DNA from: Clostridia bacterium
Lineage (GTDB): Bacteria; Bacillota; Clostridia; Oscillospirales; CAG-382
Assembly (NCBI GenBank): GCA_017397805.1
Contig: JAFQHW010000066.1
Location: forward strand, 1 to 54,811
Direction: 5' to 3'
Length of the DNA stretch: 54,811 bases
Part shown: in pieces, positions 8,835 through 29,749 of the stretch
Layout: every line of letters begins with the position of its first letter
Numbering within the stretch: position 1 is the first letter of the stretch
Notes under the pieces: model-generated
Told to the model about the DNA's origin: nothing
Databases searched by the model: none
Seen by the model: the letters and a program-made list of their open reading frames with translations, nothing else
Position numbers and translations under genes: made by a program

Positions 8835-9221
8835 TTAAAACTTGGATATAGGCAGAAATTTGCCTGTATTTTTATAATGCTCGATTTGGGCACGGTCCTT
8901 TTCCGCCAAGCTATCTATACCTGCCAATGACTCATTGTGGTGTGTAAGCTCGTGCAGAACAACCTCGCGTAGTTTTTTACACCAAGCATTGCGGTTTGCG
9001 GTGGCAAGGGCAATTTTAAACGAACCGTAATAAAGCAGGATATAACGCCCCATTTGTTTGTTTTTGAAATATTTGCCCAAAGTATATAACCCACTACCGT
9101 TATCGCTTGCTTGTGCTTGAGGTACAAGACTAATTCCGCCGTTTAACTCTCGCAGTAAAACTTCTGGCAACTCATCGACGATCGTATCAAGGTAATCGGC
9201 AGCTTCTTCGAATGACAACAT
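8835..9221 (-). CDS. Small zincin-like metallopeptidase
   Basis: This 128-residue protein carries HELTHHNE near residue 90, a HExxH zinc motif, in the context VVLHELTHHNE typical of the small metallopeptidase family (PF06262-like) found as single-domain proteins in many Firmicutes and Actinobacteria. The substrate is unknown. No signal peptide, so cytoplasmic. Its start is 1 nt beyond the xth stop, so the two are co-translated. Confidence 0.82.
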   Translation of the reverse strand: MLSFEEAADYLDTIVDELPEVLLRELNGGISLVPQAQASDNGSGLYTLGKYFKNKQMGRYILLYYGSFKIALATANRNAWCKKLREVVLHELTHHNESLAGIDSLAEKDRAQIEHYKNTGKFLPISKF

Positions 9222-9222
9222 A

Positions 9223-9975
9223 CTATATATCCATTATTAACCCAACGGGACAGTGGTCACTGCCTAAAACGTCGGGATAAATAATGCTGTCCTTAATTTT
9301 TTCTTTGATAGAATCGGAAACGATAAAATAATCGATCCTCCAGCCTACGTTGTTGGCGCGGGCGTTTGAACGGTAAGACCACCAAGTATAGGCATCGGTT
9401 TTTTCGGGATATAAGTATCTGTAGCTATCCGTAAAACCCGCATTAAGCAGTGAAGAAAAACAGCTTCTTTCCTCGTAGGAAAAACCGGGATTACCTATGT
9501 TGCTTTTCGGGTTTTTTAGGTCGATCTCCTTGTGCGCAACGTTAAGATCTCCGCATAAAATTACGGGCTTGCTTCTTGAAAGACAGGATAAATACATACG
9601 CATATCTTCTTCGTATTGCATACGGTAATCTAATCTTTTAAGCTCAGGCTGTGCGTTGGGAGAATAGCTTGTAGCAATATAAAACGCATCAAATTCCAAG
9701 ACTATAAGTCTGCCCTCGTCGTTGTATCTGCCGTCTATACCATACGTTACGGATATAGGCTTTTTTTTGGTAAGTATCAGTGTGCCTGAATACCCTTTTT
9801 TATCTGCACTGTTCCAATAGCAGTAATAGCCGTCAAAGGAAAAATCAGCTTGTTCGGGTTGCATTTTAGTTTCCTGAATACAAAAGATATCGGCATCCGA
9901 TTCCTTGAAAAAATCAAAAAAACCTTTTGTAACACAAGCGCGTAGTCCGTTAACGTTCCAAGATATAAGTTTCAA
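9223..9975 (-). CDS. xth: Exodeoxyribonuclease III / AP endonuclease
   Basis: This is a 250-residue ExoIII-type nuclease of the EEP superfamily for base-excision repair at abasic sites. The metal Glu lies in CIQETK, the catalytic core in GDLNVAHKEIDL, and the C-terminal Asp-His in GSDHCPVGL. Length is normal for the Gram-positive ExoA/Xth form. It follows the beta-lactamase-like gene by 2 nt, so it appears to be transcribed with the envelope operon, perhaps by read-through. Confidence 0.96.
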   Translation of the reverse strand: MKLISWNVNGLRACVTKGFFDFFKESDADIFCIQETKMQPEQADFSFDGYYCYWNSADKKGYSGTLILTKKKPISVTYGIDGRYNDEGRLIVLEFDAFYIATSYSPNAQPELKRLDYRMQYEEDMRMYLSCLSRSKPVILCGDLNVAHKEIDLKNPKSNIGNPGFSYEERSCFSSLLNAGFTDSYRYLYPEKTDAYTWWSYRSNARANNVGWRIDYFIVSDSIKEKIKDSIIYPDVLGSDHCPVGLIMDI

Positions 9976-9977
9976 AT

Positions 9978-11177
9978 TTAAAGCCCCATTTCAACCTTAT
10001 AAGCGTTGTGTTCAACCATCAGTTCGGCTAAAAGTTTGGTTATTGCGGTAAATTGTATTTGACTGCGAGGGTCATCAACACCGCTTCTGCCGCATAAAAC
10101 CACAAGAACGTATTCGTGCCCGTCTGCAAACACTACGCCTGCATCGTTAAAGGCTTTGCCGCTCCAACCGGATTTGTGTGCCGCTTCGTATTGAGGTATT
10201 GAGCGCCAAATGTAGTTATAAGCCGCGTGCATATATCTGTCAAACAAACCCGCACCGCTTTCGCAGGTAAGGCTGTAGTAATATATTTCGCGCCAAGCGG
10301 ATGCCATTTCCTCAGCGGTGATATATCCCCAATTAGAACCGTCGGGTATTATTTGAGAGCAACCGAGAGTTTCCATCATATAATTGAAATTTTTCGCCCC
10401 AACCAGCTCTTTAAGCATCAGATAAGCCTGGTTATCGCTTATTCTGATCATGTAATCCATCAAAGTTTCTACGCTGAAAGCGGTTCCGTAGCTAAAGTTT
10501 TGCACTTGCCCCGTGCTATGCTCTTGAAAATGACGAGGCTGATAAGTTTTGTATGTATCCCAGGTTATAAGACCTGCATCAATGCATTTATTAACGTAAA
10601 GGCCCACAGGCCCTTTGATAGAGCTTGCAGTAGCTATCTTCGTGTCCTTGGAATAGGCAAAAGCCATATTTGTATCAAGCTCTATAAGCATTATGGATTG
10701 AGCGTTTGCAAAAGAGTTGATTTGGTTTTTAAACTTTTCCGCTAAAGCTTCACTCATCCTGAATTCGGTGTTATAAAGCTCCAATCCATCGCTTTCCCAT
10801 TCCAGGCCGTATTCAATATCAGGTGCATATATGACAAAAGAATCTTCAAGATTCGGTTCGGAATCTTGACTTACATCATCGCTCGAAATTTCTTTCGAAA
10901 CCTCTTCGCTTATTTCTTCAGAGGATTCAAATGAATAAGAGCTTTCTTCCATGCTTTCTTCAGCGCTTAGTTCTGCAGAGAGTTCATCCTCCGAGGATTC
11001 CATGCTCATAGACATATCTTCGCTTGTTTCATCGGAAGAAGTACCGCTTTCAACGGTAATTGAATCTTCATCGTCAATATTAGAGCTTGTGCCACCGTTA
11101 TCATCGGTTTTAGTGCATGCAACAGATAACATCATGGCTAGTATTAACAGAAAACATAAGGTTCTTTTATAAATCAT
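9978..11177 (-). CDS. Beta-lactamase-fold serine hydrolase lipoprotein
   Basis: The 399-residue lipoprotein has a lipobox ending at Cys21, a Ser/Glu/Asp-rich low-complexity linker (about 25-115) and a class A beta-lactamase-like domain. All three active-site motifs are readable: SSIK (Ser185/Lys188), SDN (247-249) and KSG (335-337). It is therefore a predicted active serine hydrolase, but the fold also covers D,D-peptidases and esterases, and drug resistance should not be assumed. It starts 4 nt after the ACP stop, tying it to the MBOAT/FkbH operon. Acting on the modified cell-wall polymer or peptidoglycan is my inference. Confidence 0.85.
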   Translation of the reverse strand: MIYKRTLCFLLILAMMLSVACTKTDDNGGTSSNIDDEDSITVESGTSSDETSEDMSMSMESSEDELSAELSAEESMEESSYSFESSEEISEEVSKEISSDDVSQDSEPNLEDSFVIYAPDIEYGLEWESDGLELYNTEFRMSEALAEKFKNQINSFANAQSIMLIELDTNMAFAYSKDTKIATASSIKGPVGLYVNKCIDAGLITWDTYKTYQPRHFQEHSTGQVQNFSYGTAFSVETLMDYMIRISDNQAYLMLKELVGAKNFNYMMETLGCSQIIPDGSNWGYITAEEMASAWREIYYYSLTCESGAGLFDRYMHAAYNYIWRSIPQYEAAHKSGWSGKAFNDAGVVFADGHEYVLVVLCGRSGVDDPRSQIQFTAITKLLAELMVEHNAYKVEMGL

Positions 11178-11181
11178 AGTC

Positions 11182-11418
11182 TTATACTCTTTCTGCTATT
11201 ATTGATGCCATTTCACCAACGTTTTTCATGGAAGAAACCTCTTTCATCTTAAAACGCATACCAAATTCAGCTTCAACGGCAGAAATAAGGGTTATGTGCG
11301 AAAGACTATCCCAATCCTCAACGTCTTCCGCAGTAGTTTCGGGACTTAGTTTAATTTCTTCGTCGAAAATATCGGCAAAAATCTCTTCAAGCTTTTCGTA
11401 TATTTCTTTTTCTGACAT
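11182..11418 (-). CDS. Acyl carrier protein of the MBOAT/FkbH operon
   Basis: This 78-residue acidic helical protein has the phosphopantetheine site DSL at residues 37-39 (Ser38) in EDWDSLSHI, the form common in secondary-metabolism and DltC-like carriers rather than fatty-acid AcpP (DSLD). An SD (GGGAG) lies upstream. It is sandwiched between the FkbH-like gene (14-nt gap) and the beta-lactamase-like gene (4-nt gap). By FkbH precedent it should carry a thioester-bound acyl unit made by that enzyme and hand it to the MBOAT protein. Confidence 0.93.
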   Translation of the reverse strand: MSEKEIYEKLEEIFADIFDEEIKLSPETTAEDVEDWDSLSHITLISAVEAEFGMRFKMKEVSSMKNVGEMASIIAERV

Positions 11419-11432
11419 AATAAAATCTCCCT

Positions 11433-13208
11433 TTAATTAACGTCTATATATCGATTTTGTTTTTTGTAATCATCAAGTTTTAAGCACCACTCGCTGTTTC
11501 CTATCTCGTCTTCCGAGAAAAGAGCAAATCCGAAATCACGATATAAATATTTCACCATATTGTTTTTGGCAGTTGGATAATAATAACCGCGTATTTCGTT
11601 TATGCCTTGCTTCTTGCACTTTTCAACAAGGGTATCAAGCATTGCAAACTCCATACCCCTCTTTAATACTCTGCAAGACATAAGCCATAATCTCATATGG
11701 AGAACGTTTTCGTCGACCTCACCGATTAGTACGGAAACTACGCCGTTATCACCGAATTTATCGGTGAGCTTGCCGTAAAGCGTTATATATTTATCAGTTT
11801 CGCTTATTGCGGTTATCTCCTCGGCAGAATATCTTCTCGTGGTTAGATTGAACTGATTGCTTTTGTTGGTAAGCTGTGCGATTCTCTGTAAATAAACAGG
11901 CGCAAAAGCTTTTATTTCTGCTTTCATATTCAGGCTAATGAGATAGTCGCCGTAATTTTCAAAAGCGGAAAGCTCTTTTTCTCTTGCGGCGTTTGCCTTA
12001 TACATCTCGTTGCGCTTTATATCGTCTTCGGAAATAGCGACAGCTTCAAAATATCCGTTGCGGTCGATGGTTTTGATATAAGATTCAACGGTGCCGATTT
12101 CAGGCACTGCGCACGGCAGCGATTCTCTTACTATGGCTCTTTCGGCCGGATTATCATCTACAAAAACCAAAGAGTCTGACATTATGTTAAGCTCCTTGGC
12201 TATAGAAGCGATATTCAGGTGCTTAGGTTCCCAATTAGCCTTGATTTTTATAAAATCATCAGGCAAAAGAACCGAATCGGGGTGATTTAACCCAGATATC
12301 GCATTTTCGTGATCGTTTTTAGAGCAAACGTTAAGCATTATACCCAAGTCTTTGTGCTTTTTTATATAGCTTTGAAACTCTGTAAATGCCTGTGCAACGG
12401 GAGTCTCTGTACCAAGCTCTAAGCCTTCTACGCCGTCGTCGCCGACGATACCGCCCCAAAGGGTATTGTCCATATCGAGAACAAACGCCTTTTTACTTTT
12501 GCCGTATATAGCCCTGATAATATTTGCAAGATTGAATGCAAATTCGGGTATTGCGTCCAGACACATGGCATATTTGAACATATACCAAAATGACAGATCG
12601 GACCATTTATCAAGACCAAAGCAAGAAGAAATATAATCAACGTCGTTCAGGTAAAACGATTTTGTATTTATTGCGTGTTCCGCAACGAAGTCGTTCATCT
12701 TGCGCACGAAATATGTGCTACCGTGTATATCAGCGCCATCCATGTTACCAAGCAATCTGTAAGTGGGCAACTCAAAATTGTTTTGAATAACTGGACAACG
12801 GAACTTGTTTTCCAAATTGGTCCACATATCCGAAAAGTGCTTTTGAGCCGACTCAAGCTTGCCGATTAATGCTTCTGCGCCATCAGTGATTTTAGGCAAA
12901 TACGCTTCAAGATTTCGCGTGGTGGTGTGGATATAAATTATATCGGGATTGAATGAATCGAGTTCTTTGTTTCCGAACATGGCATCCTGCCAATACATTG
13001 CGTATTCGGATTGATAAAACTTAGGCTCTATACCCGCATCAAGCAAAAATAATTCAAGCATATCCTTGATGTGATCAACCGTTGACCCGCCAAGGATGGC
13101 AATGTTCTTGGAAATCCTGTTGCTTCCGTCGGCAAGCAAAGCCTTCTTATACTTGCGCTTATTTTTCAGTAAATCGTTTGCGTTGAGCGGATATGAAAAT
13201 AGCGACAT
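11433..13208 (-). CDS. FkbH-like HAD-IIIC enzyme, acyl-ACP loading
   Basis: The 591-residue protein has the full FkbH layout. An N-terminal SGNH-like domain (IAILGGSTVDH near 37-47) is followed by a HAD-IIIC domain with the nucleophile motif LDMDNTLWGG (Asp245, Asp247), the conserved Cys295 in NVCSKND and the acidic motif FVDDNPAERA, then a C-terminal GNAT-like region. Characterised FkbH relatives dephosphorylate 1,3-bisphosphoglycerate and load the glyceryl group on an ACP through that Cys. The ACP gene 14 nt downstream fits. Whether the unit here is glyceryl is inference. Confidence 0.9.
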   Translation of the reverse strand: MSLFSYPLNANDLLKNKRKYKKALLADGSNRISKNIAILGGSTVDHIKDMLELFLLDAGIEPKFYQSEYAMYWQDAMFGNKELDSFNPDIIYIHTTTRNLEAYLPKITDGAEALIGKLESAQKHFSDMWTNLENKFRCPVIQNNFELPTYRLLGNMDGADIHGSTYFVRKMNDFVAEHAINTKSFYLNDVDYISSCFGLDKWSDLSFWYMFKYAMCLDAIPEFAFNLANIIRAIYGKSKKAFVLDMDNTLWGGIVGDDGVEGLELGTETPVAQAFTEFQSYIKKHKDLGIMLNVCSKNDHENAISGLNHPDSVLLPDDFIKIKANWEPKHLNIASIAKELNIMSDSLVFVDDNPAERAIVRESLPCAVPEIGTVESYIKTIDRNGYFEAVAISEDDIKRNEMYKANAAREKELSAFENYGDYLISLNMKAEIKAFAPVYLQRIAQLTNKSNQFNLTTRRYSAEEITAISETDKYITLYGKLTDKFGDNGVVSVLIGEVDENVLHMRLWLMSCRVLKRGMEFAMLDTLVEKCKKQGINEIRGYYYPTAKNNMVKYLYRDFGFALFSEDEIGNSEWCLKLDDYKKQNRYIDVN

Positions 13209-13220
13209 AAATTATCTCCC

Positions 13221-14504
13221 TTAATAAGCGGTACGTATTCTTTCTATGTTTTTGTAAACGCTTCCCGTGGCAGTAAAGCCCGAAACGACAAAGGCAACAT
13301 CGGTAGCACCCACGTCTTCGCAAAGCTTTATTCCGTTGCGTCTATAGTTGCGAATATCAACGACGTATATCTCATCAAAAGAACCTATGGTAAAAGGTGC
13401 GAAAGCGTTACCGTAGCTGTCCTTGAATATAACGAGCTTTCTACCCGTGTTATTACCTGTTACAATTTTCACCCATACGGAGTCACCGCCCAAAAATGCG
13501 CCTGCGTAGCTTTTTACGTTAAAAACTACGGTATCTCTGCTGTAATTATACTTTTCAAAATCATAATTACCTTCGTTGCAGAAATATGCAGTATATTCTC
13601 TTGTGGGTTTATAAATTGTGAAATCCTCCGGATTGCTTGAGAGAACGGAAGATTTGGAGAAGGCATAAAGCGACCCTACAAAACCTTCCTTGACTATTTT
13701 TTCATAGGTTTCAAGACCGTCAAAGCTTACGTTCGCCATTTTTGCAAACTCCTCGGCGGCATAATACGCGCCAAGTGCATTCCAATGATGTTCGGTTCTG
13801 GGATAAATATCTTCATCAACGTGATTTGCTAAGGTTGCATATACGTCAACGTAATTAACGTTTGAAGCGGTGGTGTTTTTAAGGTTGTTAAAGTTTACCT
13901 GCCCTCTTGTAAGTAAGTTTGAATACTCTTCGGGAGCGTAATAACAGCTTGCATGAGGTACAACTATGGAATATACGTTTACGTTATCTGCCAAATCGTT
14001 CTTAAAAGCGGAAACGTAAGCGGAGTATTGCGTGCCGGAGGTTTCGGAGCCGTAATACTGCTCCATACCTCTTGTGCCTGCAATCAAAATACCGTTTGAA
14101 ACGAAAACTTTCCCGTCAGGTTCGACGGTGGAAGCAGAAGAGCTATCGTTGGTTTCAGGCTCGGAAATTGAGCTGTCCTGAGTGTTATCGGGTTTGCTTT
14201 CTGTTTCCGTTTTGCTCTCGCTCGTGCTGTCTGCATCGGTTTCGCTTTCGGTTTCAGATTCGTTATTGCCAAGTTCCGAGTTTTCCGATACAGTGCTTTC
14301 TTCGGTGCTGATTATGCTCTCAACGCTTTCGAAAAATTCAACAATAGAACTTTCTTCATCGGAAGCTTCTTGGCTTGCCGTATATTCCGAAGATTCGGAT
14401 TCGTTTTTAGATATTTCGCTGATGTCATTTTCAGATTCAATGGAAGCGCAAGCGGTTGAAAACAACAGTATCGTTGAAAGTGCTAATAAATAAATTTTTT
14501 TCAT
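13221..14504 (-). CDS. DHHW/AlgX-like lipoprotein 2 with E-H-H-W motif
   Basis: The 427-residue lipoprotein (lipobox Cys19) has a long Ser/Glu/Thr/Asp linker (about 20-130) and a DHHW-family SGNH-like domain. The catalytic-type motifs are RTEHHW (Glu238, His239, His240) and FKDSYGN (Ser363). Compared with the sister gene upstream (DWHW), Asp is replaced by Glu. DHHW proteins relate to AlgJ/AlgX, which acetylate polysaccharide outside the membrane with an MBOAT partner. It lacks the usual N-terminal RHLA...FP region of the family, which is encoded separately upstream. The start overlaps the sister stop as TAATG. Confidence 0.88.
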   Translation of the reverse strand: MKKIYLLALSTILLFSTACASIESENDISEISKNESESSEYTASQEASDEESSIVEFFESVESIISTEESTVSENSELGNNESETESETDADSTSESKTETESKPDNTQDSSISEPETNDSSSASTVEPDGKVFVSNGILIAGTRGMEQYYGSETSGTQYSAYVSAFKNDLADNVNVYSIVVPHASCYYAPEEYSNLLTRGQVNFNNLKNTTASNVNYVDVYATLANHVDEDIYPRTEHHWNALGAYYAAEEFAKMANVSFDGLETYEKIVKEGFVGSLYAFSKSSVLSSNPEDFTIYKPTREYTAYFCNEGNYDFEKYNYSRDTVVFNVKSYAGAFLGGDSVWVKIVTGNNTGRKLVIFKDSYGNAFAPFTIGSFDEIYVVDIRNYRRNGIKLCEDVGATDVAFVVSGFTATGSVYKNIERIRTAY

Positions 14505-15730
14505 TATCTGCGCACCATTCTACCGATATTGAGGCAATTGGGACCCATTGCGGAGAAGGAACTGAGCGCAAAGATAACGTCGGTTGCGCCTACGTCCTGG
14601 CAGAAGGTTACGGAATTGCCTGTGAAATATCTGAAGTCTACCGTATATACGGTTTCAAACATAGAGCTGAGCATAGGGGCAAAGCAGTTGCCGAAGCTAT
14701 CCTTGAACACAACTGCTACCCTACCGTTTTTCGTGCCGGTGTTGATCTTACATACGTTATTGTCAGCATCAAGGAAGGTCATGTACCAAGAGCTAACGTA
14801 GTCATCGGAGATGTTGGGATAACAAGTGGTGCGAGTTGTTTTAAGCTTAGTACCAGTTTCTCTGTCATAATAATCAACGGTGTATTCGTGGTTAAATTCA
14901 TACCAGAAAAATTCTTCAGGACTGTTCTTCAGGGCTTGAGGGCGACCTGCAGAAGCATAAAGAGAGCCTAAGAATGGTTTGAAGCTGCCGTCTTCGTTAT
15001 ATTTGCCTGCTTTTGTGTAATAGTCGCTGTTGATGTCAGCGATTTCAAGACCCGCTTTTTCACCGAGAAGCTTAGCGGCATAATAAGCACCGAGCTGTGT
15101 CCAGTGCCAGTCGGTTCTGAAATATATAGCCTCATTCCAATGTTCGAACAAGGTATCGTAAACGTTAACGGAAACAACTTTATCGTCTTCCTCGAAAAGT
15201 TCATCAAGGTAACCAAGCTTATCAACCTGCTTACCGCCGTACTTATCGTAATAGTTTTCGCCGTCAATTACAAGCTCCTGCAAATATATGGAGGAAGCCG
15301 TAGGAACAACCATGGAGTAAACGTTAACGTCTTCACCTAATTTATCCTTGTGTTCGGTTACGTATTGATAGTAAAGATTTGCGTTGTCGTAGCTGCCGCC
15401 AAAAGACTCCATACAACGGTCGCCGATTAAAAGCAAGCCGTTGGGGAAAGAAAATTCACCGCCTTGAGGTTCGTAGGCGGGGTTTTTGCTTTCGGTTTCG
15501 GGCGTTTTGCTTTCGTCTTCGGAGGAGTTACCGTCAGTAGCGGAAGAAATTTCGATCGGGGCTCCGCCGGTGGAATCGTCAGGAGCGCTTGAGTTGTTCA
15601 ATTCACTTTCGCTGTTTTGGGTGCCGGTTTGACTGCTGTTGTCCTCGTTAATGTCAATTTCGTTGCCGCAAGAAACGAATGCGGAAACCAAAATCATTAC
15701 TGCTAAAACTAAAGATAAATACTTTTTCAT
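14504..15730 (-). CDS. DHHW/AlgX-like lipoprotein 1 with D-W-H-W motif
   Basis: The 408-residue lipoprotein (SAFVSC, Cys21) has an acidic Ser-rich linker to about residue 90, then a DHHW domain with TDWHWT (Asp207, His209) and FKDSFGN (Ser345), the likely catalytic triad of an extracellular acyl-transferase or esterase. I start at the ATG at 15730 with AAAGGA upstream rather than the TTG 15 nt earlier. Sister of the next gene (aligned throughout the domain), so probably a duplication. The DHHW N-terminal segment is missing and appears as the separate upstream gene. Confidence 0.88.
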   Translation of the reverse strand: MKKYLSLVLAVMILVSAFVSCGNEIDINEDNSSQTGTQNSESELNNSSAPDDSTGGAPIEISSATDGNSSEDESKTPETESKNPAYEPQGGEFSFPNGLLLIGDRCMESFGGSYDNANLYYQYVTEHKDKLGEDVNVYSMVVPTASSIYLQELVIDGENYYDKYGGKQVDKLGYLDELFEEDDKVVSVNVYDTLFEHWNEAIYFRTDWHWTQLGAYYAAKLLGEKAGLEIADINSDYYTKAGKYNEDGSFKPFLGSLYASAGRPQALKNSPEEFFWYEFNHEYTVDYYDRETGTKLKTTRTTCYPNISDDYVSSWYMTFLDADNNVCKINTGTKNGRVAVVFKDSFGNCFAPMLSSMFETVYTVDFRYFTGNSVTFCQDVGATDVIFALSSFSAMGPNCLNIGRMVRR

Positions 15731-15757
15731 AATAATTCCTTTCAAAATCTTATATAG

Positions 15758-16132
15758 TTAAGCAAGAGGGTCGGATACGTTTCCATCGGGTCTTTCGTCA
15801 TCTATACCTTCCTGCACGTTATCCGTGTTTATTTCTACGTCTTCGCCTTTTTCGTTCTTCGCAATATAATCGGTACCGTAAAGCTCACGTATATTGCTGG
15901 CGATGTCCAATATCAATTCCCTTTCGGGAATAGTATCGGAAAACCATTTTGAAATACCTTCCGTGTATTCACCTTCAAAATATGATTCGAATGAGAATTC
16001 GGGAAATGTGGCAAGATGTCGGGTTTCTGTTTTTGATATACCGCTTGACCTTGGAAAAAAAGCCATACATCCGATTATAATTGCGGTTACAGCCGCAATC
16101 GTGATGATATTGATTTTATAAAACTTTGACAT
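15758..16132 (-). CDS. Stand-alone N-terminal segment of a DHHW protein
   Basis: The 124-residue protein has one N-terminal membrane segment (about 7-26) and then TETRHLATFPEFS and EYTEGISKWFSDTIPERE, the segment that normally opens full-length DHHW proteins just after their anchor. It then ends with an acidic tail and a proper stop, and the next gene begins with its own signal peptide, so this is a gene split and not a frameshift. It probably forms a complex with one of the two lipoproteins. It lies 11 nt after the MBOAT stop. Confidence 0.8.
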   Translation of the reverse strand: MSKFYKINIITIAAVTAIIIGCMAFFPRSSGISKTETRHLATFPEFSFESYFEGEYTEGISKWFSDTIPERELILDIASNIRELYGTDYIAKNEKGEDVEINTDNVQEGIDDERPDGNVSDPLA

Positions 16133-16143
16133 AATTACCTCCG

Positions 16144-17577
16144 TTAAAACCTGAAGTAAAGGAAAGGGTTAGAGGCATTTTCCGCCAATAAAAGCGTACA
16201 TATTACCAAAAGAGCTACAGAAGAAGCCGTTGTTAAATAAGCGGCTACGCACTGTGCCTTCGGGTGAAGTGCCAGCTTCTTCTTTATTAACGGTAAAATC
16301 GGCATACTAAGCACTGCCGCAGCTATAATCAAGTAAATACTTCCGTATATCGTGGCTTTGTCAACGGTGTTGATAAATGCATTGCCGTTGGCAAATACCA
16401 AGTTTTTAAAGAACGTACCTAAATCCTTTAAATTTTCGAAGTAGAAAATACCGAATCCGATAATGATAACCAGCAAGGCGTATACGTTTGTAAGACCTAT
16501 CGGTATCTTCTTCATCCGCTTTTTGCCTATCAACTGTTCGATCAAAATGAATGAACCGAAGTACAAACCCCATATTATAAAGTTCCAAGAAGCGCCGTGC
16601 CAGAAGCCTGTGCAGAACCAAACAAGGAAAAGACTGAAATACTTTCTTCTTTTTCCGAACAACGGAACATACAGCAGATAATCTCTGAAAAAGCTACCCA
16701 AAGATATGTGCCATCTCTGCCAGAACTCCGCAATGTTTTTGCTGGCAAAGGGATGCTTAAAGTTTTCGTCAAAATGAAAACCGAAAATTCTGCCGATACC
16801 AATTGCCATGTCTGAGTAACCTGAAAAATCGTAATAAACGTAAAGCGCAAAACAAACGACACCCATAAAAGTAGCAACAAAGCTTTTTTGAGCCAAAGTC
16901 GCGCCAAGGTAATTAACATCACCGCCGTAAGTGCCTAAAAGCTGGTCAACGACGTCATATAAGCCGTTTGCAAAGATTACTTTTTTAGCAAGCCCCACGA
17001 TGAATCTTGTAAGGCCTTCACTTATATCTTGCGCGGTGCTCTTTCTGTCGTTGATTTCCTCTTCAATAGTGGAGTATCTGACGATAGGACCGGCAACCAA
17101 CTGTGGGAACAAAGAGATGTATAGCAAAAGTCTGGGATAACTTCTTTGGACCTCTACTTTGCCCCAATAGCAGTCAATTATATAAGACATTATTTGGAAG
17201 GTAAAAAAGCTGATACCGATAGGCAAACGTATATCGGGAACGGAAATGCTTGAACCAAGTAATGCGTTAATGTTTTCAACAAAGAAGCCGGTATATTTAA
17301 ATACCAAAAGCAAGCCGATATTAAAAATCAAGGCAACGGTAATAGTCGCTTTTGCTTTTTTTGTATCCCTGAATTTTTCAATCAGCAGACCTGAAAAATA
17401 GTTAACAAGTGTTGAAACGATCAACAATCCTACGTAAATCGGTTCGCCCCAGGCATAAAACAACAACGAAAAAACTATAAGAACGGCGTTTTTAGCCTTT
17501 ACACTTTTTACGGAAAAGTACGAAATAAAACACGCCGTCAAAAAAACGAATACAAAGAATAAATCAGAAAAAACCAT
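16144..17577 (-). CDS. MBOAT-family O-acyltransferase (DltB/AlgI type)
   Basis: The 477-residue polytopic membrane protein has the MBOAT hallmarks: FWQRWHISLGSFFRDYL (His290) and the nearly invariant His327 in TGFWHGASW, with hydrophobic helices throughout. Family members take an acyl group from a cytoplasmic donor (DltC thioester for DltB, acetyl-CoA for AlgI-like proteins) and pass it across the membrane. As first gene of an operon with an ACP and FkbH-like enzyme, a carrier-bound donor is likely, as in Dlt. It is preceded by a strong promoter. Confidence 0.93.
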   Translation of the reverse strand: MVFSDLFFVFVFLTACFISYFSVKSVKAKNAVLIVFSLLFYAWGEPIYVGLLIVSTLVNYFSGLLIEKFRDTKKAKATITVALIFNIGLLLVFKYTGFFVENINALLGSSISVPDIRLPIGISFFTFQIMSYIIDCYWGKVEVQRSYPRLLLYISLFPQLVAGPIVRYSTIEEEINDRKSTAQDISEGLTRFIVGLAKKVIFANGLYDVVDQLLGTYGGDVNYLGATLAQKSFVATFMGVVCFALYVYYDFSGYSDMAIGIGRIFGFHFDENFKHPFASKNIAEFWQRWHISLGSFFRDYLLYVPLFGKRRKYFSLFLVWFCTGFWHGASWNFIIWGLYFGSFILIEQLIGKKRMKKIPIGLTNVYALLVIIIGFGIFYFENLKDLGTFFKNLVFANGNAFINTVDKATIYGSIYLIIAAAVLSMPILPLIKKKLALHPKAQCVAAYLTTASSVALLVICTLLLAENASNPFLYFRF

Positions 17578-17628
17578 CTATATACCTCATCAAACGAGTA
17601 ATTGCATTGCAACATACATGTTCATATT

Positions 17629-17657
17629 ATTATATACTAAATTAATCTTTAAGTCAA
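17629..17657 (-). promoter_or_regulatory. Sigma-A promoter of the MBOAT/FkbH operon
   Basis: On the minus strand TTGACT (17652-17657), 17 nt, TATAAT (17629-17634). It starts the transcript about 45 nt before the MBOAT ATG. No other good promoter is seen until past the ACP gene. Confidence 0.85.
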
Positions 17658-17695
17658 TATGTCAACGCGATATAGTTGTGTTTTTTGCATAAAAT

Positions 17696-17726
17696 ACCCC
17701 ATAAGTTTGATAAAAACCTATGGGGT
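17696..17726 (-). terminator. Terminator of the oad-like operon
   Basis: Arms ACCCCATA / TATGGGGT with an inner TTT/AAA pairing, followed on the minus strand by TATTTTATGC and further T-runs. It lies 12 nt after the carboxyltransferase stop. Confidence 0.85.
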
Positions 17727-17737
17727 GAATTTATAAG

Positions 17738-19138
17738 TTATTCTTCTTCTACTTTGGTAACAAACAGAGCCTTAGCATCGGCTTCTTTTTCAGCCAGCTC
17801 TTCTTTGCGTTTGTTAAAGTATTTAACCGCTACTTGCTCGAACAAAGCGTAGGAAAGAACGTCTTCATCCTGAATAGCGTATTCAGAGCAAGCCTTCTTG
17901 AGCTTGCTGAGTTCGGGTTCAAGCGCATCTGCGGGACGGCTCGTGATGGGTTGTTCATCTCCGAGTATCTTCTTGGTGAACTCGGGAGAAATGGGAGCGG
18001 GAGTTCTGCCGTATTCGCCCTTAACAACACCCTTGAATTCCTTAGTTACCATCTTGTATCTTTCGCCGAGGGTAACGTTAAGCACTGCCTGGGTACCAAC
18101 TATCTGAGAAGTGGGAGTAACGAGAGGAGGATAACCTGCGTCCGCTCTTACACGGGGAACTTCTTCAAGAACCTCAAGAAGCTTATCGGACTGACCTGCT
18201 TGCTTAAGCTGAGAAACCAAGTTGGAAAGCATACCGCCGGGAACCTGATAACGCAATGCGTTTACGTCAACCTTAAGTACTGCGGGATCAATAAGACCGG
18301 ATTCTATATACTTACCTCTGAGGTCGGAGAAGTACTTGGAAACAACGTCAAGCTTGTCCAAATCAAGACCTGTATCGTAAGGAGTGCCTGCCAAGGTAGC
18401 AACGATAGGCTCCGTCGGAGGCTGGGAAGTACCCAATGCAAAAGGAGCGATGGCTGTGTCGATTATATCAACGCCTGCTTCTATAGCCTTAAGGATGGTC
18501 ATGGAAGCCAAGCCTGTTGTATAGTGAGTGTGAAGCTCCAAGGGAAGGTTGCACTTTTCCTTAATAGTTTTAACGAGCTCATACGCATCATAGGGCTTTA
18601 AAAGACCTGCCATGTCCTTAATACAGATGGAATCAGCACCCATATCTGCAAGTTGGCATGCCAAATCAGCAAAAAACTCGTTATTATGAACGGGACTTGT
18701 TGTATAGCTTAAAGCTGCCTGAAGATGACCTTTTTCTTTCTTTGTTGCCTTTATTGCGGTTTTAAGGTTTCTAACGTCATTAAGTGCATCAAATACACGG
18801 ATTATATCAATACCGTTAGCGATAGACTTTTGAACGAAGTATTGAACAACGTCATCGGAGTAATGTCTGTAGCCAAGTATGTTCTGACCACGGAAAAGCA
18901 TCTGAAGCTTCGTGTTCTTAACGTTTTTACGAATAGTGCGAAGTCTTTCCCAAGGGTCTTCGTTAAGGAAACGCAAGCAAGAATCAAAAGTTGCACCGCC
19001 CCATGCTTCAAGTGCGTGATAGCCAACGTTATCAAGAGCCTTGAGTATGGGTAACATTTGTTCCGTAGTCATACGGGTTGCGGCCAAAGACTGATGAGAG
19101 TCACGAAGGACTGTTTCTGTAATTTTTACTTTTGCCAT
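17738..19138 (-). CDS. oadA: OadA-type carboxyltransferase (oxaloacetate decarboxylase alpha / pyruvate carboxylase B-like)
   Basis: This 466-residue enzyme has a DRE-TIM metallolyase barrel: TVLRDSHQSLAATRM near the N-terminus, the metal-ligand His pair in LELHTHYTTG, and the lysine region SICIKDMAG. A conserved carboxylase domain (PGGMLSNL, YGRTPAP) follows. It moves CO2 between an oxo-acid and biotin. Unlike many OadA proteins it has no fused biotin domain; the carrier is the separate gene upstream. Oxaloacetate decarboxylation or PycB-type carboxylation cannot be separated by sequence alone. Confidence 0.92.
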   Translation of the reverse strand: MAKVKITETVLRDSHQSLAATRMTTEQMLPILKALDNVGYHALEAWGGATFDSCLRFLNEDPWERLRTIRKNVKNTKLQMLFRGQNILGYRHYSDDVVQYFVQKSIANGIDIIRVFDALNDVRNLKTAIKATKKEKGHLQAALSYTTSPVHNNEFFADLACQLADMGADSICIKDMAGLLKPYDAYELVKTIKEKCNLPLELHTHYTTGLASMTILKAIEAGVDIIDTAIAPFALGTSQPPTEPIVATLAGTPYDTGLDLDKLDVVSKYFSDLRGKYIESGLIDPAVLKVDVNALRYQVPGGMLSNLVSQLKQAGQSDKLLEVLEEVPRVRADAGYPPLVTPTSQIVGTQAVLNVTLGERYKMVTKEFKGVVKGEYGRTPAPISPEFTKKILGDEQPITSRPADALEPELSKLKKACSEYAIQDEDVLSYALFEQVAVKYFNKRKEELAEKEADAKALFVTKVEEE

Positions 19139-24265: not shown

Positions 24266-27200
24266 GTGAAAAGATTAATTGCTTCATTACTCGTAGCTTT
24301 GTTTATATTAATACAAATTATACCTACGGTTACTGCTATGGATTTTCATAGCAATCCTTTTGATTATGCTGATGAAAAGCGGCAGGAGAGCATCGAGTCA
24401 TCTCTCGGCACTTCCGTTCCCGCTAAAAAGCCCACCGTAGCTCCCATTACCGCCGTTGGCACAAGATACGCCGTGAAGTTTAAACAGACTGCTTCTCTAT
24501 CAACTGTTTATGACTGTGTTAAGCATTACGGCTATGAGCTTTTGGGATACAGCGAACAGAGAATTTTCAGCATTTATATCAGTGATATCAGTGAATTCAG
24601 AAGCAATTATAAAGGCATTGTCGAGATAATTGAGGAGGATGCAGTTTTAAGCTTATCTGCAACCGTTAACGATCCTTTGGCAAAGAATCAATGGGAATTA
24701 GAAGCTTTGAATTTATACGAAGCGTGGGATATTTCCAAAGCGAAGAATGATATAACCGTTGCGGTTTTGGACAGCGGAATATACCGCCAACACGAAGAGT
24801 TTGATAATTGCGAGATATTGTCCGGATTTGATGCGGTTACCGATACTGACGGTATAGATTTTGACTGTAACGGCCACGGTACAAAGGTTGTGTCTATCCT
24901 TGCCGCCGCAAGCAATAACAGATTGGGAATGGCAAGCGCCGCCCACGGAGTTACCGTTTTGCCTATAAGGGTGAGTGACAATACCGGATTTGTATATTCA
25001 ACAGACTTTATTCAAGCATTATATTATGCGGCTGATAGCGGTGTTGACGTAATTAATATGAGCTTTGGCGGATACGTTTACTCAGCAGCAGAGGAATCTG
25101 CAGTTGAATACGCTGCGAGCAAGGGATGTATTATGGTTTCTGCCGCGGGAAACGAGGGCCTGGATAACAAATATGCAGGCATGAAATCCTATCCCGCCTC
25201 CTACAACAACGTAATAAGTGTTGGCTCAATTAATGAAAACGGTGAGGTGTGCGCTTTTTCACAATATAACGACTCCGTTGACTTAGTTGCTCCCGGTTCG
25301 GGATTAACGGTAGCCAATTTTGAGGGTGGGTACGAAAACGAAAGCGGAACTTCTTTTTCTACTGCTTATGTAAGCGGTATTATTTGCCTTGCCCTTTCCG
25401 CAATCGATGAAGGTTATAGTTTTACCTCCGACCAATTCGTTAATTTAATTGCTGAAATTAACGGTTTTGCAAAAACAAACTCCGAAGGCTATGGAACGAT
25501 AGATGCGGTCAAGGTGCTGGAAAATATAAATTTGCCCATGTACTCAGGCGTGGCAGACGAAAGTATTTATCATCATAATATTACCGTGTATTTTAATCGT
25601 GGTGTCGCAAAGCTTGACGGCGAAGAGTTTAAAAGCGGCGATATGGTTGTGGTAAGCGGCAGACACGTTTTAAACATCGAAGACGGTGAAAACGTAAAGG
25701 AAATAAGCTTCGTTACCGACAACATACCGTTGACTTACGAATACACGGAAACGAATAATAAAGCAAGCATAATCTTTGACAGAGGTTCTGCCACTTTAGA
25801 CGGTGCTCCTTATATTTCCGGATCTGATATAACAACTGACGGTAAGCACTATTTTATAATTACCGGACCTTACGGAAACACTGAAACTTATGAGTTTGAG
25901 TGTAGCTTTTCTGCCCCCAAAATTTTTGGTGTTAAAAACGGCGGCTATTATACTTCTCCCGTTTATTTCTCTACTTCCAAGGCTGAATCCGTTACGTTAA
26001 ACAACACTCCTATCGAGCACGGTAAAGCCATAACCGCCAATGGCTCATATACCCTTACGGTTAAAAACAAAAATGCCGAACAAACAGTTTATTTTACGGT
26101 TGCTATCCCAAACATTAAAAATTACGATTCTTCTGTTGCCAACGGGAAAATCGCAGTGGATAACGAAAATAGTGCAGTTTATTTGTACAATAGCGTTTTG
26201 TCGGGCATCAGAGTGCTCAGCGAGTCAAATCTAAACCAAACACAAAGCTTTGTAAGGACAAATGACGGCATTATCGGGCACGCCTTCAGTAACGGTAATT
26301 TTATTCTTCTTCACGAAAAAGGAATTTCTATAATCCCGCAAGACGAAATTTCACAGGGCAATTCGTATAATCTCATATACTTCCCCTTTAAGGGTACAGC
26401 AAAATCCCCTGTTTTTGCCAACGATAAGGTTTATTATATCAGCACTGACAGCAACGGTGCGTGTGCACTAAGATGCATGAGCACCATTAACGGAAACGAC
26501 GAGGTCGCATTCACGTTTGTTGATACCTTTACGCATTTGGCACACAGTGACGGCACGTTTTTGCTTGCTTCAGATAGCGGAAGCATAAGTGCATACGACG
26601 CTAACGGTGTAAGGAAGTTTAAAATTAATACAGCCGTACCTACGAGTAAGCTGGTATTTGCCGACGGATATTTTTCCAACGGTAGTTTGGTATATGATGT
26701 GGACAGTAAATCCGAACTTTTTGCCTTGAAAGACAATGAGAAGCCGTTGAGAATCCAAAGCGGAATTCTTATAACAAATTGTTCGGTCTATACAATTGCC
26801 GATTATCAAAGAGTCGGTGCTTTTGAGACCGAGCTCTCCGATTTTGTGATAGATGATAATAACAAGGTGTATAAATATCTTTCCAATCAAAAGCTGCAGA
26901 TAATAGAAGACACAAGCGTTTTCTCGGTAAAAAATGCAAACAGAAAGTTGAACGCCGCACCATTGAACGAAACTATTGAATTGGAAGCAACGCAAAGTTC
27001 GGTTTTTGAACAGAGCGTCTTGTTACCCGCGGACGTTTCGCTGATAGAAGGGGCTTTAATTGAGAACGTCAAAGAGCTTTTTGCGATTTCCGCATCCAAC
27101 AAAGCCTTGTATATATTTGACAGTGATAGCCTTCAGTTGAAAAAGAAGTTGGACTTGAGATTCAGTCCGTCTTCTATTTGCAGTGACGGTACAAATATAT

Positions 27201-29749
27201 ACGTATCCTTTGCAAATAAGGAGTATATTTATAAATCCAAAGGAAGCACTGACAGCGGGATTTATATTGTAACCAATCACGCATACGCTTCCATCAAAAT
27301 TTATAACGAAAACATATACGCTCTGACTGCATCGGGTGATTTGTTTGCGTTTTCCTCTGCAGACGCGGTTAATACCGAACGTGTAATAATCAAAAATCAA
27401 AAGGTTAACAGCTTTGATGTTGAAGGCGATTATATTTATGCACATCTATCCCCTGCTTCATTATCGTTTATTTACAAAATAAGAATCTCAAGTTGCGAAG
27501 TTGAGGAAACGGCTGTTATCACCGCAAGCTCTAACCGTGTTTTTGCAACGAGCAATTGTATTATTGTGGGCAGTACTGCTTATTCGATTAATGACTTAAG
27601 TGCTTTGTTTAGCTTTAAAAACAAGGTTAGTTTTGCAGATGACAATTATATTCTTACCGAAGATGGACTGTACAGCGATAGTTTTGAACTTTTAGGCGTT
27701 CACCGCCACAGTACCTTAGGCGCTGTATTTGATAAGAATTATAACTATTACAGCGTTCACAATGACAGCGTAATAAAGATTAGATCACACGGCGATACTC
27801 TTTCAGCCCTTCCTGAAATCGACGGAATAATTCAAGACGAGACTCTTGACGGGCCCGTGTATCCGGTATATAGCTTTGGTTTAGGCTATATTGACGGTGT
27901 TTATATTGAATCGGGAACGCCTATTGAAAACGGAGGCAAGCACGTCTTTACGATTTGTAAACCTTTCGGCGTTTCAAAGGAATGCAGCTTTTATATTAAG
28001 GCTGTAATTAACAAAATTCAATTGAGCTATCCTAAAACTACTATTGCCGTAAACGAAACGCTGAAAGCAACTGTTTCTGCATTCCCCATCGTAACAGTTA
28101 ACGTGGACACGGTTTTCAATGCCGAAAACGGCAACGCCGTGGTTTACAGTGATGGCACGGTTATAGGCGTTAAACCGGGAACCTGTACTATAACCGCCAC
28201 CACTTCAGACGGCTTGCATAGCGCTTCGTACACACTGACCGTTGTAGAAAGCAAAATAGAATTCGACAGCAGTTATTTCAAAGAAGAAGAGGGCGGAGTC
28301 GTTGGAAATATTGCTCCGGGTACAAGTATTGAAACGTTGTACTCAGCCGTTGAGCTTACCAATGGCAAGGTGGTTGTGACAACAAAAGACGGTACCGAGG
28401 TTAACGTGGGTGTTATTTCCACCGACATGAAGGTTCTGTTGTACGACATCAACGGTGACGTTATAGACGAACGAGCCTTGTCCGTTTTTTGTGATGTGGA
28501 CTGTGACGGATATATCACCGCAAATGATTATTATACCTTGCAAAAAATATCGGAGCAACCGTATTCAATCTCCTTGGCGCTTAAATATGCCGCCGATACG
28601 GATAGAAGCGGCAAGGTTGACGTATTCGATTTGCTTGTGTTGAAAGAACATCTGCTCGGCAAAGAACGACTAGAAGAAGCAGTAGCTATGCCGGAACGAA
28701 CGGCAAGGGCTATTCCTTGGATAATAATGCCGCGTTATATCACCCGCGGCACGGATATGACTATCAGCATAACCTTATCGGAATCACAGAACGTCAGTGC
28801 GATTTCGGGCGTTATTACTTATTCCTCTACCGTTTACACCGTTACAGACGTTCAAGTGCCCGACGACGTTTCCGAGGGATTCTTTTCCATCGAATCAGAC
28901 GGTATTTATTTCTTTGCAAACTGTAATCCCTTGTGGGACAGTGAAGTTATTATTACCGTAAGTTTTGCAATTTCAGAGCTATACAATGAAACAGATGATG
29001 CGTTTATTGCTTGCTCTGAACTAAAGCTCTATGACGGAAATGCCGCTTCTTGTGAAAGCGTAAAGAATACCCCTGCTTTTTCAAAAAATACGATTGAGGA
29101 TATCTGTATATTCAATATGCCGGGATTTGAATTTGAGAAAGATACAACATATTATGAGTTAGAGTTTCCGAAAGCTTCTCATCACGTGTATATATCAGCG
29201 TATCCTGATGGTGATTTTGTAATAACCGGTAACACCGCATTTTCAGAAGGAACGGCGGCATTCTCCGTTGTTAAAGAGGATGACAGCGAAACAAAATATA
29301 ATTTCGTGTGCAAATCGGAATTAGGCGATGCACCCTTGCAGAGTGAAACCGAAAGCAGTAAAAACAATAATTCATTTTTACAAAGCGTTACCGTAGAGAA
29401 CGGCACGCTTTCCCCCGAATTCAGCAAGAATATATTTGAATACTATATTGTGTGCAAAGATTTTGATTTGGTGAAAGTTGCTGCCACCCCCGAAGCCGAA
29501 AGTTCCTTGGTTGAAATAAAGCCTCTCGACAAAGAGGCAAACGCGATAACGGTAGAGTGTACTGCTAACGGTGGTAACACAAAGATTTACACTTTTAAGC
29601 TCGTGCATAACACTCCTGCTGATATTGATTACCCCGAAGATCCTATTAATTTTGTTTGGCTGTGGATTTTGCTTGGTGTTTTTATAAGTGCAGGGCTTGC
29701 AACTTTGGTCGTGTATCAGCATAAATTGATTACAAGCGATAAGGAATAA
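24266..29749 (+). CDS. Giant modular subtilase with propeller, Big2, dockerin and cohesin-like domains
   Basis: The 1,827-residue surface protease starts at GTG (AAAGGAG 7 nt upstream). In order: signal peptide (1-24), propeptide (about 65-130), S8 peptidase with Asp169, His204, Asn296 and Ser363 (GTSFS) all intact, small repeats (about 425-610), a probable beta-propeller (about 610-1180), a Big2 Ig-like domain (1251-1328, ending GTCTITATTSDG), a type I dockerin (about 1408-1465: two DxDxDG-like calcium loops, DVDCDGYITANDY and DTDRSGKVDVFD), a cohesin/CBM-like beta-sandwich (about 1478-1590), a cadherin-like domain (1705-1783) and a C-terminal membrane helix (1795-1817). A dockerin and a cohesin-like module in one anchored protease is unusual. 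Confidence 0.9.
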   Translation: MKRLIASLLVALFILIQIIPTVTAMDFHSNPFDYADEKRQESIESSLGTSVPAKKPTVAPITAVGTRYAVKFKQTASLSTVYDCVKHYGYELLGYSEQRIFSIYISDISEFRSNYKGIVEIIEEDAVLSLSATVNDPLAKNQWELEALNLYEAWDISKAKNDITVAVLDSGIYRQHEEFDNCEILSGFDAVTDTDGIDFDCNGHGTKVVSILAAASNNRLGMASAAHGVTVLPIRVSDNTGFVYSTDFIQALYYAADSGVDVINMSFGGYVYSAAEESAVEYAASKGCIMVSAAGNEGLDNKYAGMKSYPASYNNVISVGSINENGEVCAFSQYNDSVDLVAPGSGLTVANFEGGYENESGTSFSTAYVSGIICLALSAIDEGYSFTSDQFVNLIAEINGFAKTNSEGYGTIDAVKVLENINLPMYSGVADESIYHHNITVYFNRGVAKLDGEEFKSGDMVVVSGRHVLNIEDGENVKEISFVTDNIPLTYEYTETNNKASIIFDRGSATLDGAPYISGSDITTDGKHYFIITGPYGNTETYEFECSFSAPKIFGVKNGGYYTSPVYFSTSKAESVTLNNTPIEHGKAITANGSYTLTVKNKNAEQTVYFTVAIPNIKNYDSSVANGKIAVDNENSAVYLYNSVLSGIRVLSESNLNQTQSFVRTNDGIIGHAFSNGNFILLHEKGISIIPQDEISQGNSYNLIYFPFKGTAKSPVFANDKVYYISTDSNGACALRCMSTINGNDEVAFTFVDTFTHLAHSDGTFLLASDSGSISAYDANGVRKFKINTAVPTSKLVFADGYFSNGSLVYDVDSKSELFALKDNEKPLRIQSGILITNCSVYTIADYQRVGAFETELSDFVIDDNNKVYKYLSNQKLQIIEDTSVFSVKNANRKLNAAPLNETIELEATQSSVFEQSVLLPADVSLIEGALIENVKELFAISASNKALYIFDSDSLQLKKKLDLRFSPSSICSDGTNIYVSFANKEYIYKSKGSTDSGIYIVTNHAYASIKIYNENIYALTASGDLFAFSSADAVNTERVIIKNQKVNSFDVEGDYIYAHLSPASLSFIYKIRISSCEVEETAVITASSNRVFATSNCIIVGSTAYSINDLSALFSFKNKVSFADDNYILTEDGLYSDSFELLGVHRHSTLGAVFDKNYNYYSVHNDSVIKIRSHGDTLSALPEIDGIIQDETLDGPVYPVYSFGLGYIDGVYIESGTPIENGGKHVFTICKPFGVSKECSFYIKAVINKIQLSYPKTTIAVNETLKATVSAFPIVTVNVDTVFNAENGNAVVYSDGTVIGVKPGTCTITATTSDGLHSASYTLTVVESKIEFDSSYFKEEEGGVVGNIAPGTSIETLYSAVELTNGKVVVTTKDGTEVNVGVISTDMKVLLYDINGDVIDERALSVFCDVDCDGYITANDYYTLQKISEQPYSISLALKYAADTDRSGKVDVFDLLVLKEHLLGKERLEEAVAMPERTARAIPWIIMPRYITRGTDMTISITLSESQNVSAISGVITYSSTVYTVTDVQVPDDVSEGFFSIESDGIYFFANCNPLWDSEVIITVSFAISELYNETDDAFIACSELKLYDGNAASCESVKNTPAFSKNTIEDICIFNMPGFEFEKDTTYYELEFPKASHHVYISAYPDGDFVITGNTAFSEGTAAFSVVKEDDSETKYNFVCKSELGDAPLQSETESSKNNNSFLQSVTVENGTLSPEFSKNIFEYYIVCKDFDLVKVAATPEAESSLVEIKPLDKEANAITVECTANGGNTKIYTFKLVHNTPADIDYPEDPINFVWLWILLGVFISAGLATLVVYQHKLITSDKE

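Follow-up and report, generated by a model that had tools for sequence, protein, structure and literature searches.

We propose that a seven-gene operon in the window, the 54,811-nucleotide stretch of Clostridia DNA analysed here, probably encodes a Dlt-like pathway for envelope acylation, in which an FkbH protein takes the place of DltA and would load glyceryl on an acyl carrier protein (ACP), followed by a relay through an MBOAT acyltransferase and SGNH proteins to a surface polymer. The operon occupies positions 9978-17577 of the minus strand and encodes, from 5' to 3', the MBOAT protein, a detached DHHW anchor, two DHHW (SGNH) lipoproteins, the FkbH protein, the ACP and a beta-lactamase-fold lipoprotein. 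The intergenic gaps are 11, 27, -1, 12, 14 and 4 nt in operon order, with 2 nt to the following gene exoA; for the gap of 27 nt, gene 3 is taken to begin at its ATG at 15730, the better of two start codons, and with the TTG start this gap would be 12 nt. All seven open reading frames lie where the first-pass annotation had placed them, and its description of a single operon with short gaps or overlaps stands. Profile searches likewise returned the families that it had named (MBOAT, DHHW, FkbH, ACP and beta-lactamase fold).

The association of these genes is conserved. Among 92 FkbH loci, comprising 80 public-genome loci with the nearest relatives of this FkbH together with relatives of the window's genome, 54 have the order of the window, MBOAT-DHHW(-DHHW)-FkbH-ACP, and several of the others are short contigs. 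A second sample of 148 genomes spread over the class was chosen against the bias of near relatives, and there an MBOAT gene was found within 5 kb of FkbH in 10 of 23 above-cut-off matches, and in 9 of the 11 full-length ones, when our own rough density estimate gives a chance expectation of about 0.5% for each. Thus, the neighbourhood is far from random; a random one would have counted against the first-pass annotation's reading.

The same four functions also occur in other arrangements. FkbH-ACP-MBOAT-DHHW is found at L114 and L115, with an FkbH protein of 37-38% identity (L114). A further variant is FkbH-ACP-[MaoC-SDR]-MBOAT, in many loci with an SGNH protein of another family. In Lachnospiraceae and Treponema, FkbH-ACP-MBOAT is accompanied in many loci by a membrane-anchored protein that has no Pfam match. 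A PDB sequence search with this second SGNH family gave no meaningful match, but the predicted structure did: it is that of an SGNH/GDSL hydrolase (pLDDT 80), matching GDSL esterases at Z 13 and PatB at Z 11.7. In all, FkbH-ACP is tied to MBOAT in three arrangements, with differing MBOAT and SGNH lineages.

The MBOAT protein is close to DltB in fold. A phmmer comparison with DltB gave an E value of 9e-21, and the predicted model (pLDDT 89.6) has as its best match DltB (6bug; Z 29.1, root-mean-square deviation 3.1, 362 aligned residues) over residues 1-388, with the next-best family at Z 23. Past residue 388, the model has extra C-terminal helices that end in FLYFRF, an instance of the FXYXXF motif whose Tyr bears the acyl group in DltX and PatA (PMC12148441). 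F472 and Y474 are invariant across 45 aligned MBOATs. With the catalytic His327, the C-terminal motif with Tyr474 and an SGNH partner, the protein has the make-up of an MBOAT/SGNH pair.

The cytoplasmic loop of the MBOAT protein bears on the acyl donor. The carrier DltC docks on DltB at the cytoplasmic helix HC; the contacts fall in residues 302-317 (PMC11035591). At the same place, ordinary MBOAT/SGNH proteins have the motif Y-I-P-L-G-G-N/S. P-L-G-G is missing from 61 of 63 MBOATs linked to FkbH and ACP, and is present in 32 of 35 unlinked ones (Fisher p 5e-20, with rows that are not independent). The three unlinked MBOATs without P-L-G-G are a DltB protein, the only one above its family cut-off in that search, one with an AMP-ligase and an ACP directly upstream, and one lying 6.6 kb from FkbH. 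In a fresh set of 39 further MBOATs, for which weaker family matches were taken first, a carrier was found within the stretch read for 11 of the 17 without P-L-G-G versus 1 of the 22 with it (p 7e-5); several of those without it sit in DltA/DltC-like pairs. These are raw counts, and the automatic detection of ACPs missed divergent carriers: at L185 an ACP-like and an AMP-ligase-like reading frame follow the MBOAT gene, and at L189 an AMP-ligase-like reading frame stands beside it on the other strand. The carrier of the sole P-L-G-G MBOAT with one in this set (L204) looks like a housekeeping fatty-acid ACP and lies 2.5 kb off.

The MBOAT and DHHW proteins could instead form a plain O-acetyltransferase that uses acetyl-CoA, of the PatA1/PatB1 or CcsH/CcsI type, with FkbH and the ACP serving an unrelated product. 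The known MBOAT/DHHW pairs are indeed O-acetyltransferases, and pairs without a carrier are common. The window's genome itself has a second one (L084:6082-8751, G000:C71), which serves as a natural internal control. We nevertheless regard this explanation as improbable, since FkbH-ACP is tied to MBOAT in each of the three arrangements, and linked MBOATs are without the P-L-G-G loop that unlinked pairs nearly all keep; the unlinked, carrier-less pair of the window's own genome carries YIPLGGNRKG (L082). Because of this split between linked and unlinked proteins, the sequences give good but not conclusive grounds for taking the FkbH-linked ACP, not acetyl-CoA, as the putative donor of the MBOAT protein. 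More broadly, envelope MBOATs may fall into two donor classes, users of acyl-CoA with P-L-G-G and users of carrier proteins without it, and FkbH-loaded glyceryl or lactyl esters may be a widespread, undescribed modification in Clostridia and some spirochaetes; we hold the chances for and against this generalization to be about equal.

The putative loading enzyme belongs to the FkbH family by both its profile match and its HAD-IIIC aspartates. Conservation was computed on 122 FkbH proteins, plus a set of 23. D245 and D247 are present in all 122 proteins. The first-pass annotation had singled out Cys295 as the conserved cysteine, which was not borne out: only 73 of the 122 have Cys there, and this residue was dropped. 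Cys512, in an S-C-R/M-S-C-R motif of the acyltransferase-like C-terminal part, is among the positions that are at least 97% invariant, and is the better candidate for an acyl-enzyme cysteine. Among ACPs neighbouring FkbH, the carrier signature EDWDSLxHIT is kept.

Members of the FkbH family are reported to load glyceryl from 1,3-bisphosphoglycerate on an ACP (PMC7489565; see also PMC13122637), and by analogy glyceryl would be the likeliest acyl group here. The same relay may instead carry lactyl, 2-O-methylglyceryl or another C3 acid. FkbH-ACP occurs with a MaoC dehydratase and an SDR reductase, in most cases next to MBOAT, at L012, L014, L035, L071, L159 and L165, and at L029:11274-14326 the order is FkbH, methyltransferase, ACP, glyoxalase-fold protein and MBOAT. 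Such genes would fit the processing of a C3 acyl-ACP: MaoC and SDR could convert glyceryl- to lactyl-ACP, a possible route to surface lactylation, and L029 may make a methylated glyceryl donor. The window operon has no MaoC, SDR, methyltransferase or glyoxalase-fold gene, although the enzymes could be encoded elsewhere in the genome; the simplest product to expect from it is therefore glyceryl without further modification, and another C3 acid appears unlikely. In a separate group of loci, an AMP-ligase is found in an AMP-ligase-ACP-MBOAT-SGNH order without FkbH (L170:3975-8492, L175:2246-6689, L176, L177, L178, L182, L183 and L192). L170 also has a pyridoxal-phosphate decarboxylase, and in this group the shuttle motif is on the MBOAT. 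Where tested, these AMP-ligase-fed loci score below the DltA and DltB cut-offs, so that they perhaps use a different amino acid.

Outside the membrane, the transfer would fall to the DHHW proteins. The first-pass annotation had described a DHHW fragment and two lipoproteins, which is right as far as it goes; both lipoproteins are themselves complete DHHW/SGNH proteins, each with a PF14286 match, a DHHW-type motif and a Ser nucleophile. The first has the motifs TDWHW, KDSFGN and DFRY and matches 4NZK (E 1e-49) and B. cereus PatB1 (E 3e-5), and the second has TEHHW, in which Glu replaces Asp, KDSYGN and DIRN. The 124-aa protein is probably the detached N-terminal part of a DHHW protein, serving as an anchor or docking piece, to judge from its partial profile match. 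DHHW is divided in this way at L002, L003 and L107 too, so the split is genuine rather than a sequencing error; other relatives have a one-piece DHHW protein.

The neighbourhood in relatives bears on the acceptor. Of the loci with the window order whose upstream sequence was long enough, 12 from rumen relatives have TagF-like glycerophosphotransferases upstream, often alongside Stealth proteins; this suggests phosphate-rich polymers as acceptors in the TagF-bearing rumen relatives. FkbH-ACP directly follows genes for Stealth and TagF-like polymerases at L037, L077 and L081, where the stretch read contains no MBOAT. Wall teichoic acid was considered as the acceptor in the window's organism and rejected, its genome having no TagF-like gene though relatives have them. 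The acyl group might also go to a glycolipid, a lipid-linked oligosaccharide or a small secreted molecule rather than a polymer, given that FkbH proteins in the literature found serve natural-product synthesis and that polymer genes do not adjoin the window operon. We consider this rather improbable, since the known substrates of DHHW proteins and of MBOAT/SGNH pairs are envelope polymers, a number of rumen relatives have polymer genes of the TagF-like and Stealth types upstream, and no gene for a polyketide synthase or nonribosomal peptide synthetase was noticed in loci with the window order.

Returning to the glyceryl relay to a surface polymer, we envisage four steps. First, FkbH would take a C3 acyl group from 1,3-bisphosphoglycerate, its HAD domain removing the phosphate, and pass glyceryl to the phosphopantetheine of the ACP, as in characterised FkbH enzymes, with Cys512 as the candidate acyl-enzyme residue. 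Second, glyceryl-ACP would dock on the remodelled loop of the MBOAT protein, as the loop statistics suggest, and His327 would pass glyceryl across the membrane to Tyr474, on the precedents of PatA and DltX. Third, Tyr474 would give up its acyl group to the catalytic Ser of a DHHW lipoprotein, both lipoproteins being kept near the MBOAT protein by the 124-aa anchor. Finally, the DHHW proteins would transfer the group to a hydroxyl of a polymer in the wall or capsule, forming an ester. Of this scheme, the gene content, the motifs, the conserved linkage, the MBOAT fold and the loop signature are observed; the acyl group, the individual transfers and the acceptor are inferred.

Several observations weigh against this proposal. 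The window FkbH is assigned at the level of its family profile. Two MBOATs linked to FkbH and ACP keep P-L-G-G (L160 and L012:7423; at L012:7423, a second MBOAT adjoins its ACP). On the MBOAT tree, the loop changes about five times, with at least three changes forced by well-supported branches, so that the independent origins are few and the large counts above are not independent; a test of independent pairs, loop against carrier, on this tree had too few events for power. No TagF-like polymerase was found in the window genome (assembly 89% complete). The operon is also patchy, being present in 3 of the 7 genomes of the genus, all of them draft assemblies. Such a distribution suggests an accessory trait. 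A gene flanking the operon was found in the genus only in the three genomes that bear it.

Features of the operon in the window, with the evidence for each
Feature	Position	Strand	Evidence or remark
MBOAT acyltransferase, 477 aa	16144..17577	-	PF03062 81 bits; catalytic His327 in GFWHG
MBOAT cytoplasmic loop, about aa 300-316, YLLYVPLFGKRRKYFSL	16630..16680	-	alignment to DltB; place of helix HC; without P-L-G-G
Acyl-shuttle motif FLYFRF (FXYXXF), Tyr474	16147..16164	-	sequence; MBOAT C-terminus
124-aa protein, one N-terminal membrane helix	15758..16132	-	PF14286 profile positions 1-56 only
DHHW/SGNH lipoprotein 1	14504..15730 (15745 with TTG start)	-	PF14286 119 bits, profile residues 61-385
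DHHW/SGNH lipoprotein 2	13221..14504	-	PF14286 122 bits, profile residues 73-385
FkbH protein, 591 aa	11433..13208	-	TIGR01686 289 bits, cut-off 147; PF21211 (FkbH_N); PDB 3slr
Acyl carrier protein, 78 aa, DSL with Ser38	11182..11418	-	PF00550 above cut-off; closest PDB chain 2lml
Beta-lactamase-fold lipoprotein	9978..11177	-	PF13354 110 bits (Beta-lactamase2); S185xxK, S247DN, K335SG
Promoter-like site TTGACT-17-TATAAT	17629..17657	-	11/12 consensus matches, best in 9000-18500
Terminator-like hairpin of preceding gene	17696-17726		bounds operon 5' end, upstream of promoter-like site

The promoter-like site lies 52 bases ahead of the MBOAT gene; the total number of such sites in 9000-18500 does not exceed the shuffle expectation. 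The beta-lactamase-fold lipoprotein has SxxK, SDN and KSG, though no ExxLN was seen by eye past SDN, and its match to the class A beta-lactamase model NF033103 is 53 bits, below the cut-off of 200. Apart from the window, only two loci of the same genus (L002 and L003) have its gene, which is therefore outside the conserved core; possibly it encodes a wall or ester-removing enzyme. The first-pass annotation had listed this gene in the operon. Its central idea, a Dlt-like relay fed by an FkbH-loaded ACP, is well supported by the gene association, the C-terminal shuttle motif, the DltB-like fold and the remodelled docking loop. Elsewhere in the window, positions 24266-29749 encode a secreted subtilisin-like protein of 1827 aa with a dockerin-like repeat, noted by eye, near its C-terminal third.

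If the proposal is right, there is a second carrier-fed branch of envelope acylation, with a glycolytic intermediate as its acyl source, that joins Dlt-like export to the FkbH chemistry of polyketides. Glycerate or lactate esters would join the list of surface modifications, operons of this type occurring in many Clostridia of the gut and rumen, and the donor of an uncharacterised MBOAT could be predicted simply from its loop motif. The open-licence papers found on FkbH together with MBOAT, polysaccharide or acyltransferase were natural-product papers only and do not describe this gene set, in keeping with the earlier remark that no characterised pathway is known to have it; in a natural-product paper that involves both FkbH and MBOAT, the two act at separate steps.

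Among known systems, the FkbH proteins of polyketide synthesis (tetronates and methoxymalonyl-ACP; Mad7/Mad8 of tetromadurin) also work with a stand-alone ACP and have 1,3-bisphosphoglycerate as the proposed source, but they feed a polyketide or peptide synthase, whereas the consumer in the window is an MBOAT/SGNH export relay. The clostridial cellulose acetylation system ccsZABHI shares MBOAT and DHHW proteins in Clostridia and differs in having a cellulose synthase; neither FkbH nor an ACP has been reported for it. In PatA/PatB, AlgI-AlgJ/AlgX and B. cereus PatA1/PatB1, as here, the MBOAT carries FXYXXF at its C-terminus and is paired with a DHHW/SGNH protein. These O-acetylation pairs have no carrier, and PatA uses acetyl-CoA (PMC12148441), whereas the window operon has an ACP, FkbH and a different loop. 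With Dlt (DltA-DltB-DltC-DltD-DltX), the operon shares a dedicated carrier protein, an MBOAT of DltB fold, an SGNH transferase on the outside, a single operon and a probable acyl-Tyr relay. Dlt differs in its adenylating loader DltA, a separate DltX, DltD and the transfer of D-alanine onto teichoic acids, whereas the window operon has an FkbH loader, a shuttle motif fused to the MBOAT C-terminus, DHHW lipoproteins and a predicted glyceryl group. No DltA was found in the operon, and although the genome (assembly 89% complete) has 15 proteins matching TIGR01734, the strongest scores 138 bits, far below the cut-off of 560. The window MBOAT scores 153 bits against the DltB equivalog TIGR04091, whose cut-off is 375, and no protein of the window genome exceeds that cut-off. 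There is no separate DltX microprotein with FXYXXF either, the motif being on the MBOAT protein and the 124-aa protein being a DHHW fragment. Thus, the operon stands outside Dlt by membership, yet very probably works like one.

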